From: Acidobacteriota bacterium
GTDB taxonomy: Bacteria; Acidobacteriota; Terriglobia; Acidiferrales; UBA7541
NCBI GenBank assembly: GCA_013289585.1
Contig: JABCZR010000022.1
Location: forward strand, 1-64,000
DNA length: 64,000 bases
Direction of reading: 5' to 3'
Shown here: one piece after another, positions 43,125-46,249 of the stretch
Layout of the letters: each line of letters begins with the position of its first letter
Position numbering within the stretch: the first letter of the stretch is position 1
The notes under the pieces: model-generated
Databases searched by the model: none
Told to the model about the DNA's origin: nothing
Seen by the model: the letters and a program-made list of their open reading frames with translations, nothing else
Position numbers and translations under genes: made by a program

Positions 43125-43763
43125 TCACTGTGCCGCAGGCTTGGGTGGGTGTTTGGCCCGTTCCTCTCGCTTTTCTTCGATCTCTTTTTTCGACGGCGGA
43201 TAACTCTCAAAACCTTTCGAGATCTGTCCCAACACTTTGCCCCAAATACTATCGTCATCGGTGATTTTCTGTTCCACGTACAAGCGCCACGCCAGGTCCT
43301 TGCGCTTCAAATCGATCAGGTCGATGACTAGAGTTGCGTCCAGACGGGTTTCCGCCGACATCAGGTCGTAGGTATAGGCCCAATAGCTGCCCGTGAACAA
43401 TCCGAATCCGCCCCAAGCTCCTGCAGCCGCGGAAACCATCTGGGATTGGCTGTTGGCCCAATACCTCACCACCAGGTCGGGCTGCTGATCGGGCTTTACT
43501 TCCCTTAGTCCGCGCGCGATCAACGCCTGCGCCACCCCTGCATGCACACGGTCGCTGATGAGATTTGGATCCAGCTGCCGGAACTCCAGCGTATTCGCGC
43601 CGCCGACATACGCAAATGTCTTGTACTTCGAAAAATCCAGGCTGGGATCAAAATCCACATTCATCTTCCCCGTCGCCAGCGGCGCCAGGATCAGCGTCAA
43701 AACGAACAGACAAATAGCTGCAGCTAGTCTGCTGACTCGCGAACGCTTCTTGCTCTCCTGCAT
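43125..43763 (-). CDS. DUF4136-type exported protein
   Basis: A 212-residue protein starting at 43763 (MQESKKRSRVSRLAAAICLFV), where a signal peptide begins; the frame extends upstream to 43835. The DUF4136 pattern is clear: MNVDFDPSLDFSKYKTFAYVGG, LDPNLISDRVHAGVAQALIARGLREVKPDQQPDLVVRYW, RLDATLVIDLIDLKRKDLAWRLYVEQKI and KGFESYPPSKKE. These small envelope proteins, often lipoproteins, have no known activity; no lipobox Cys is evident here. The C terminus is Lys/Pro-rich. The gene is alone on this strand. Confidence 0.8.
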   Translation of the reverse strand: MQESKKRSRVSRLAAAICLFVLTLILAPLATGKMNVDFDPSLDFSKYKTFAYVGGANTLEFRQLDPNLISDRVHAGVAQALIARGLREVKPDQQPDLVVRYWANSQSQMVSAAAGAWGGFGLFTGSYWAYTYDLMSAETRLDATLVIDLIDLKRKDLAWRLYVEQKITDDDSIWGKVLGQISKGFESYPPSKKEIEEKREERAKHPPKPAAQ

Positions 43764-44120
43764 TTGGTTCACCAGCTCCTTCGTAAGAGCCACCTGCAAT
43801 CTGTCTATCGCCATGCGAGCGATTCTACACCACATGCCTGGTCTTAGCCCGATGCTACGGTCGCATTCCTTCTTGCGAAAACCCTGGCGCCGGACCCGCG
43901 CGTTTTGAATCGACGAATTTGACGAGTTCTATGGCAACGAAACTAGCGCAAGTTGCTGTGTCTCCAACCCGACATTTCTCCTACTCCCACGGGCAAATGG
44001 ACTTCAGGCCCGATTATGATGCGTGAATTCCTGATACGGAATCGCCGTCTTAATCTACAATTCCCATAGCGCGACGAACCGTGAGCCACAGGCGCTACAC
44101 GAAACAGATGGGTGAGCAAA

Positions 44121-44381
44121 ATGAAGATCGAAATCGTTCACTGTCCTACTTGACAGAACAACAAAGCCAAGGTCACGAGTCTCGTGGCCCTCATCAAGCA
44201 GCGCCTGGATGTTGACGCTGTCATTACGCCTGGTAAGACCGGCCAGTTCGAGGTGATTGCGGACGGCGAGAGGATTGCGGAGCGCGGCGGGAACTGGTTC
44301 ACGCGGAGCTTTGGCGCCGGGTATCCCGATCTCGATAGCGTGCTCAAACTGCTTGAGAAACACCGTCGTCCCCAAGGATAA
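44121..44381 (+). CDS. SelW/Rdx-family selenoprotein (in-frame UGA read as selenocysteine)
   Basis: Read through one UGA at 44151-44153, an 86-residue thioredoxin-fold protein appears: MKIEIVHCPTU, then KAKVTSLVALIKQRLDVDAVITPGKTGQFEVIADGERIAERGG, GAGYPDLDSVLKLLEKH. The Cys8-x-x-Sec11 motif, the GxFEVxxDGE strand and the length all match the SelW/SelT/Rdx family, where the second redox residue is Cys or Sec. An ATG with GGTGAG upstream gives the start. A hairpin 17-36 bases after the UGA has bacterial SECIS geometry. A conventional gene caller would report only a 65-residue piece from 44184. The family is thought to be redox-active with a thiol or glutathione partner; selA/B/C/D are not in this window. 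Confidence 0.78.
44171..44189 (+). promoter_or_regulatory. candidate bacterial SECIS hairpin
   Basis: GGTCACGA (44171-44178) pairs with TCGTGGCC (44182-44189; one G-T pair) around an apical GTC. The loop lies 25 bases after the UGA, inside the 16-37 base window known for bacterial SelB-dependent hairpins, and has a G-U at its tip, as in the E. coli fdhF element. Confidence 0.6.
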
Positions 44382-44396
44382 GAAAGAAGAGCTTCA

Positions 44397-45032
44397 CTAA
44401 GCCTCGCCCCCATGCCCGTCCGCGGAATCTTCATCTTTCTGGCGTTCCAGCGCGTCCCAATACACCTCACCCAGCTTCAGCAAATCCGTAACCGCCAGCT
44501 CTCCGGCGTCACTTCTGAAAATCGTCAGCCTCTCAGCACGCAGCAGGAGCTCATGATAAGTTGTGTAATTGAAAAGCCCCACGATGCGCAAAGCCACAGA
44601 TCCGTCCGCTCCCCTTGCCAGAGTCGCATCCGAAATATCAATCACCTGTTTGTGGTCGGTCGTAACCGCTTTTTCCAGATCGCCCCAGCTCACCGATTCT
44701 TCCCGCCACTTCGTCTGGTACGCCGCTACCAGCCGCGATTCTTCCTCTTTGGATGTTCCCGACGGCACAGCGAACGCTCCCGGCCAAACGGAATACTTCA
44801 GCACACGCGCGGACTGCACGCCCTCCAGCCGGAACAGAAATTGCATGTCCAGCGGCAGTTCATAGAAAATCCGCAAATGCTCGATTTCCAGATTCAGCGT
44901 AACGGTGCGGTGCAAAAGATTGGATTGAATGGCGATGATTTGTGCGTCATGCAGCCCCGCCCACAACGACACGCCCGAAATCCCCGGCGGAAGATTGGCC
45001 CAGTCCACGATCCAGCTTTGCTCGTCAGGCAT
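44397..45032 (-). CDS. hypothetical protein
   Basis: A 211-residue cytoplasmic protein with no signal peptide or membrane helix; AAGGTGAG precedes the ATG at 45032. The first half looks beta-rich (LWAGLHDAQIIAIQSNLLHRTVTLNLEIEHLRIFYELP, FLFRLEGVQSARVLKYSVWPGAF), and the second half is mixed (EERWREESVSWGDLEK-like region, then VALRIVGLFNYTTYHELLLRAERLTIFRSDAGEL). I do not recognise a family. It is convergent with the selenoprotein gene and divergent from the small gene at 45143. No function can be suggested. Confidence 0.6.
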   Translation of the reverse strand: MPDEQSWIVDWANLPPGISGVSLWAGLHDAQIIAIQSNLLHRTVTLNLEIEHLRIFYELPLDMQFLFRLEGVQSARVLKYSVWPGAFAVPSGTSKEEESRLVAAYQTKWREESVSWGDLEKAVTTDHKQVIDISDATLARGADGSVALRIVGLFNYTTYHELLLRAERLTIFRSDAGELAVTDLLKLGEVYWDALERQKDEDSADGHGGEA

Positions 45033-45394: not shown

Positions 45395-45457
45395 ACGCTC
45401 CACGCGATGCATTTCGGAAGTGCTATTCTTACGCAGTCCCCGGAAGTGAGGCCCCCG

Positions 45458-46249
45458 ATGCAACCCCCGACCACAAGGCAAGCCCCATGCCGCGTGATTC
45501 GAATCATTTTTCCCGCGGCGCTTCTCCTCTGCGCAACCCTCTCCGGCTGTAACAATTCCTGCTACAGCGGCTTCTGGAACGGCAACGGCAGCGGCGTCGC
45601 CGTTGGCAACACTTCTTGCCCGCTCACGCCGGCCACCGGCAACGTCACTGTGCAAATGGGCGCCGCATCCGTCTCCTCCGTCTCCGCCGCATCCACATCT
45701 TCCGCCGTCTTCGCGTCAGTGCCATCGCCTCGCGAAATCCAACATATCTACATCACTCTTCGTGCCATCGACGCCCGCGCAAGCAGCGCCGCGGACGACG
45801 CTGCATCCGGTTGGCAGCAACTCGCTCCGGCTTTCGCAGCGCATCCTGCACAAGTGGATCTCTTGGCGCTGAGCGCCGAATATATTCCGGCGACAATCCC
45901 CGCAGAAGAATACCGCCAGCTTCGCCTGCTGCTGATGGCTCAACACCCATCCTCGGATGAAGCAATCCCGGAGCGCAACGCCTGCGGCAATGTGGGGTGG
46001 AACTGTGTCGTTTTCGCCGACGGCTCGGTGCGGCCGCTGGAATTTGGCGGCGCAGCTCCAGAAGTGAAAATAACGCCTCAGAGTGCTGAGAATTTGTTCC
46101 GCGTTCTTCCCGATGAAAGCGTTCGGCTTTCGATCCAGTTCGATGCCAGGTCTTCCTCATTTTTTTCGCCGAATACTCCGGACAACATGGAGGCGAGCGC
46201 CGCGCTTCAGATGGTTCCGGTCTTCAGAGTTGTCGTTTTGACGCCTTAG
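45458..46249 (+). CDS. DUF4382-like lipoprotein
   Basis: A 263-residue lipoprotein starting at the ATG 45458. The hydrophobic core IFPAALLLCATLSGC is a lipoprotein signal with lipobox LSGC. After a Ser/Ala-rich linker, the sequence IQHIYITLRAIDARA ... GWQQLAPAFAAHPAQVDLLALSAEYIPATIPAEEYRQLRLLLM follows the DUF4382 pattern (a beta sandwich seen in surface lipoproteins). Later strands end at MVPVFRVVVLTP. It converges with and overlaps the dehydratase gene by four bases. An envelope role is inferred; nothing more specific is visible. Confidence 0.65.
   Translation: MQPPTTRQAPCRVIRIIFPAALLLCATLSGCNNSCYSGFWNGNGSGVAVGNTSCPLTPATGNVTVQMGAASVSSVSAASTSSAVFASVPSPREIQHIYITLRAIDARASSAADDAASGWQQLAPAFAAHPAQVDLLALSAEYIPATIPAEEYRQLRLLLMAQHPSSDEAIPERNACGNVGWNCVVFADGSVRPLEFGGAAPEVKITPQSAENLFRVLPDESVRLSIQFDARSSSFFSPNTPDNMEASAALQMVPVFRVVVLTP

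Follow-up and report, generated by a model that had tools for sequence, protein, structure and literature searches.

A divergent selW-like gene from an Acidobacteriota genome with an in-frame UGA that is very probably decoded as selenocysteine

Introduction

A reading frame at positions 44121–44381 of a 64,000-nucleotide stretch of Acidobacteriota DNA (the window, contig JABCZR010000022.1) is interrupted by a single in-frame TGA, and the question raised by this locus is whether the triplet ends translation or is read as selenocysteine (Sec). A first-pass annotation of the window, made from the sequence, had proposed an unannotated selenoprotein of the SelW/Rdx type. We consider it highly probable that a small selenoprotein of the SelW/Rdx type, with a thioredoxin fold, is encoded in full at this locus and that UGA codon 11 would be decoded as Sec. 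The argument for this reading is carried by comparative evidence and not by the hairpin downstream of the UGA alone.

Bacterial SelW-like selenoproteins with a CxxU motif have been described from the Sargasso Sea, from GOS data and from sequenced genomes (PMC1088965, PMC2398784, PMC1794560), and they appear as a standard bacterial selenoprotein family in the cited parts of several papers (PMC1088965, PMC1794560, PMC2398784, PMC9312934, PMC13188914). For Acidobacteria, four selenoproteins belonging to three families were given in 2006 (PMC1794560, in the section cited), and a test set from 2025 is described as including one acidobacterium with three known selenoprotein genes (PMC12013277).

Results and Discussion

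The selW-like Gene and Its Redox Motif

The features assigned to the locus are as follows.

44121–44381, plus strand: selW-like coding sequence, 86 aa and stop, with Sec proposed at codon 11 (UGA) (translation, PF10262, homologues, coding test)
44142–44153, plus strand: redox motif C-P-T-U, codons 8–11 (translation; conserved among the 13 genes compared)
44151–44153, plus strand: UGA codon, candidate for selenocysteine (translation, homologue comparison)
44110–44116, plus strand: putative weak purine-rich Shine-Dalgarno-like stretch GGGTGAG, 5′ of the ATG (read from the sequence)
44171–44189, plus strand: candidate bacterial SECIS hairpin, 8-bp stem 44171–44178/44182–44189 and GUC loop 44179–44181 (folding, covariation, synonymous divergence, published rules)

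Translation of 44121–44381 with TGA as U gave MKIEIVHCPTUQNNKAKV...RRPQG*, a product of 86 residues with a single TGA, at codon 11, which bears out the earlier placing of the in-frame UGA at the CxxU site. The nearest upstream in-frame stop was found at 44082, and strong similarity to relatives starts at the ATG at 44121. Under the standard code a short ORF of 65 aa with a GTG start is left at 44184–44381, and this truncated frame had also been predicted. Cys8 and Pro9 were present in all 13 genes compared and UGA in 12 of them. A scan of 43850–44500 for promoters and terminators found none.

Protein Family and Predicted Fold

With C in place of U, the protein matched PF10262 (Rdx) over residues 2–79 (E = 1.1e-4; 22.8 bits vs. 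a cut-off of 22.6), in agreement with the claim that the sequence flanking the UGA matches SelW/Rdx in one frame. With the stop left in, as in the genome search, the score was 15.4 bits and thus below the cut-off. Pfam Rdx was matched by all eight members of the A5 alignment with E-values of 0.01 or less, the best being 4.6e-6. For the NCBI model TIGR02174 (SelT/SelW/SelH), the window protein scored 17.9 bits, under the cut-off of 34.2; two SelW-like genes of the class, L048 and L051, exceeded this cut-off. Because of this low TIGR02174 score, annotation that treats UGA as a stop may lose such genes.

An AlphaFold2 model built from eight sequences (pLDDT 79.5, pTM 0.68) showed the order strand, helix, three strands, short helix and last helix, with the CxxU loop preceding the first helix. 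C8-P-T-U11 lies between the model strand 3–7 and the helix 12–29, i.e., in the placement of a CxxC/CxxU motif. Foldseek comparison with PDB at E ≤ 0.001 gave 21 matches, all of them chains of six bacterial entries (2oka, 2obk, 3dex, 2ojl, 2p0g, and 2fa8) with VIA Z values of 11.3–12.0. According to the entry titles, 2p0g and 2fa8 are SelW-related and 2obk is a putative Se-binding protein; 2oka, 2obk, 3dex, and 2ojl presumably also belong to the SelW-type structures. The remaining rows listed showed Z ≤ 8.3 (MIEN1 8.3, thioredoxin 8.0, mouse SelW 7.9, and mainly thioredoxins down to 6.5), and Z values at 8.3 and below say little beyond a thioredoxin-like arrangement. Searching PDB chains by profile and by sequence retrieved no SelW. 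Only weak hits were obtained in this way, to glycoside hydrolases and some other chains; they were judged to be due to chance, and the fold comparison was used instead. The predicted fold is a SelW-like thioredoxin fold, and by a narrow sequence margin together with this modeled fold the window gene is placed in the SelW/Rdx family PF10262.

Homologues and Coding Constraint

Of 95 genomes of the order searched at the protein level, five contained the gene, namely the genome carrying the window and four of the same genus; codon 11 was TGA in four of these and GGA (glycine) in one. A scan of genome contigs gave eight loci, consisting of seven with TGA and the same glycine gene. The relatives from named records (8/8 loci) all came from MAGs, with Acidobacteria, Terriglobia, Acidobacteriaceae or Acidobacteriota in the record title. 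When 399 genomes of the class were searched with a profile, 16 matches were obtained, distributed over 15 genomes. In 14 of the matches, the matched stretch contained exactly one TGA, located at the CxxU site, and was otherwise free of stops. The remaining two were the glycine gene and L050, which was dropped as a chance match covering only positions 35–70. Six of the 14 are more distant SelW CxxU genes from five other genomes of the class (L045, L046, L047, L048, L049, and L051), two of the six being in G111; the four of the six that were scanned against PF10262 (L045, L048, L049, and L051) gave E-values from 1.6e-6 to 1.2e-21.

Alignment of homologues at position 11, proposed earlier as a check on the selenoprotein reading, showed UGA in 12 close genes, glycine in one and Cys in none. 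Neither the order, the genome-contig nor the class search gave a match with a Cys form at codon 11. This agrees with PMC1794560, where Cys homologues of SelW-like proteins are said to be very few among bacteria that use Sec.

Coding constraint was calculated over codons 1–82 of 12 genes, i.e., the window gene and 11 close TGA relatives, all of which share ancestry and the named ones of which are all MAGs. The TGA at codon 11 was the sole stop within these codons in every sequence. Overall pN/pS was 0.25, with 0.11 for codons 2–10, 0.37 for codons 12–16 and 0.24 for codons 24–82. For the hairpin codons 17–23 the ratio was 1.44 (pS 0.107, pN 0.154), synonymous change being suppressed there. The other two sense frames showed ratios of 1.46 and 1.86, and the three antisense frames 1.18, 0.35, and 2.75, of which the frame with 0.35 contained one to four stops in every sequence. 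As the peptide before the UGA is conserved, the only sensible reading is that translation passes through the UGA.

The Candidate SECIS Hairpin

The stem begins 17 nt after the UGA, and the distance from the UGA to the loop is exactly 25 nt. According to the rules given in the cited part of PMC13188914, a bacterial SECIS (bSECIS) has a loop of 3–9 nt, a stem of 4–16 bp, a G at one of the first two positions of the loop, a distance of 16–37 nt from the UGA and an MFE ≤ −7.5. The window hairpin agrees with every one of these rules (3 nt, 8 bp, GUC, 25 nt, −11.5 kcal/mol), and the first-pass description of an 8-bp hairpin with a GUC tip, its loop 25 nt past the UGA and inside the bacterial range, was thus confirmed. 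The 25-nt core folds with an MFE of −11.5 kcal/mol (z −4.4), and in a 63-nt context the fold was no better than that of shuffled sequences (z 0.30). When G-T pairs were allowed and a loop of 3–9, a G among the first two loop bases and a spacing of 16–37 were required, stems of at least 8 pairs were found to follow 63 of the 1737 TGA triplets on both strands of the window, the selW-like UGA included. Since so many TGA triplets carry a stem as long, the hairpin by itself is weak evidence, and on these counts, together with the z-value in the 63-nt context, it was rejected as stand-alone proof. Rfam gave 0 matches at the gathering threshold over the window, a result that is uninformative for this hairpin.

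Comparison among relatives added to this. Across the 12 UGA genes, 95.8% of the cells were paired, and compensatory changes were found at three of the eight pairs; the figures for smaller sets were 96.9% (eight genes) and 94.4% (these eight and the glycine gene). When the partner was slid, 26–51% were paired, a control that favors a structure read from those very sequences. A shuffle control with the 12 sequences was moderate: of 500 shuffles, 32 reached the percentage paired, 11 the covariation score and 132 the number of pair types. Core folds (25 nt) ranged from −7.5 to −14.1 kcal/mol in the 12 UGA genes and reached −5.8 in the glycine gene. Synonymous divergence in the 12 genes was 0.107 for codons 17–23 vs. 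0.515 for codons 24–82, and codons 17–23 had the lowest pS of 65 seven-codon windows, tied with the one starting one codon earlier. A count with eight genes, taking codons 16–23 as the hairpin, showed the same trend (pS 0.201, rank 3 of 64, behind two overlapping windows).

Selenocysteine Machinery of the Genome

The genome carrying the window (4.73 Mb in 32 contigs, 97% complete, with the window on contig C22) was found to contain selA (E = 6.9e-172), selB (E = 2.2e-108), and selD (E = 1.7e-105), all over the curated cut-offs. Besides, it contains a tRNA-Sec (65.6 bits, over the cut-off) that is called SeC(tca) by ARAGORN. A Sec system in this organism had been implied by the first-pass annotation, for which the absence of selA, selB or selC would have counted against the selenoprotein; all were looked for and are present.

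A formate dehydrogenase alpha-like gene on contig C26 (L052:1375–3174) also contains an in-frame TGA, at L052:1954, within NQARVUHGP. TIGR01553 was its best model (776.9 bits, E = 2.6e-233), the score being slightly under a cut-off of 814.2 that applies to the whole protein, as 600 codons were read. We take ARVUHGP to be the usual Sec site of the formate dehydrogenase family, and the gene is likely a second selenoprotein gene of this genome. A stem-loop with an AGTT loop was seen downstream of its TGA. Contigs C23 and C26 of the same genome both start with elongation-factor-like stretches of identical score (L013:5–346 and L014:5–346), perhaps a duplicated tuf gene that breaks the assembly.

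Within the order, 83 of 95 genomes contained selB at E ≤ 1e-60 (80 of them with a score over the cut-off), and 79 of 95 contained an RNA over the tRNA-Sec cut-off. Among 14 control genomes, five were over the tRNA-Sec cut-off and only two had selB over its own cut-off, and the tRNA-Sec model was also matched by other tRNAs; for both reasons the 79 genomes are an upper count. The order appears to be broadly Sec-competent.

Proposed Decoding and Alternative Readings

In the proposed decoding, the ribosome would arrive at the UGA at codon 11, and SelB with Sec-tRNA(Sec) would bind the stem-loop that starts 17 nt past it and has its loop at 25 nt. Insertion of selenocysteine would then complete the C-P-T-U redox motif, and the protein would probably act as a thiol/selenol oxidoreductase via a selenenylsulfide between Cys and Sec at the N-terminal end of the first helix. 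Both the redox role and the decoding of the UGA are proposed because of the family and the Sec machinery.

A true stop at the UGA would make the locus a pseudogene or leave the short frame 44184–44381 as the only part translated, and such a frame with its GTG start is indeed present, in a gene that is sporadic in the order (5/95 genomes). This is very improbable in view of the strong purifying selection on codons 2–10, the UGA at one position in 12 of 12 genes that are otherwise open over codons 1–82, and the low divergence of synonymous sites in the hairpin; moreover, a product of the short frame would be without the Cys, and in the model it would lose the first strand and roughly half of the first helix. 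The opposite strand contains another frame, 44055–44375 (106 aa), of which the SelW frame could be the shadow, and this frame (antisense 0) is open over the 82 codons in 11 of the 12 homologues. Its pN/pS of 1.18, compared with 0.25 for the SelW frame, makes it a negligible candidate for the real gene, and the family and fold matches were found for the sense frame, which is the strand whose protein was searched.

Translation through the UGA might also insert another amino acid, by a near-cognate tRNA or a reassigned code, as the glycine at codon 11 of one relative could suggest. We consider this extremely improbable in a genome with complete Sec machinery and a formate dehydrogenase gene that also has an in-frame UGA. 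The conserved hairpin satisfies the rules for a bacterial SECIS, and CxxU is listed as the Sec motif of this family in the cited parts of PMC9312934 and PMC13188914, which argues for Sec at this position as well.

The Glycine-Containing Relative

In G036 (L028/L035:3001–3264, JAJPIE010000047.1) the frame is kept, with a GTG start and GGA at codon 11. Two of the eight hairpin pairs are broken and the fold is weaker. Compared with the other genes, its pN/pS for codons 24–82 was 0.40 vs. 0.26 among eight TGA genes, and no match to Pfam Rdx was found at E ≤ 0.01. Its genome retains selB and tRNA-Sec. The synonymous divergence of the hairpin codons from those of the other genes is still low (0.119), so that any loss would be recent, which counts against simple decay. 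Judged from these comparisons, the relative looks like a case in which Sec was lost by one base change and the hairpin weakened afterward, and the GGA may also be a sequencing error. The glycine-substituted relative offers a natural case for studying selenocysteine loss.

Relationships, Neighborhood, and Mobility

In a tree of the 13 genes, none of the 10 inner branches was starred, and the best fork joined the window gene and L030 (94/91). The window protein showed 87% identity to L030 and 89% to L031, vs. 64 and 63% to G031 and G036 of the same genus; these protein identities suggest transfer of the selW-like gene between lineages. When six neighboring proteins of the window were compared with 12 relative loci (flanks of up to 3 kb), none matched at E ≤ 1e-3, and an all-against-all comparison of flanking frames (≥90 aa, E ≤ 1e-8) showed shared flanks only in L031, L039, and L042. 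The neighborhood thus gives no operon clue to function. The neighbors in the window include DUF4136 and DUF4382 proteins (43125–43835, minus strand, and 45407–46249, plus strand), neither of which was found near the gene in these 12 loci, within flanks of up to 3 kb. Among viral contigs, 129 stretches fitted a pattern and none was confirmed, and plasmids gave no match at E ≤ 1e-3; thus, these searches showed no sign of carriage by phages or plasmids.

A wider picture is possible, if rather doubtful: the close genes might form a distinct acidobacterial SelW subfamily that is nearly always Sec-dependent, is patchy and set in unrelated gene contexts, and moves between Sec-decoding lineages. The glycine relative would then represent a one-base exit from Sec that bypasses Cys, giving either a redox-disabled SelW with another role or a gene that is being lost.

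Comparison with Known SelW-like Proteins

The gene adds a well-supported selenoprotein to Acidobacteriota and reveals a SelW branch that NCBI's curated model scores under its cut-off. The decoding mechanism itself is textbook and the family is already known from bacteria and animals, while the gene is easily overlooked. SelW selenoprotein genes of Epsilonproteobacteria have been reported as wholly missed by genome annotation (PMC4607533, in the part cited), and the window gene is a further, probable SelW selenoprotein gene, from another phylum.

The fold resembles that of mouse selenoprotein W (PDB 2npb; Foldseek TM 0.58, E = 1.1e-3, VIA Z 7.9), at 18–21% identity and with 2npb ranked no higher than the thioredoxin 6mos (Z 8.0). 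Mouse selenoprotein W also carries CxxU. In contrast to eukaryotic selenoprotein W, the hairpin of the window gene lies within the reading frame; the eukaryotic SECIS is described as sitting in the 3′ UTR (PMC1088965).

The closest likeness is to the bacterial SelW-like selenoproteins (PF10262), with which the window gene shares the CxxU in the same place, the predicted thioredoxin-like fold and the candidate in-frame bacterial SECIS. It differs from typical SelW-like proteins in being under the TIGR02174 cut-off, i.e., in belonging to a divergent branch, and from L045, L048, L049, and L051 of other genomes of the class, which score higher with Pfam Rdx. A GGNxxTRxxGAGxP stretch is shared within its close clade, unlike in other SelW-like proteins. 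The window gene is thus a new, divergent member of the established bacterial SelW-like CxxU family.
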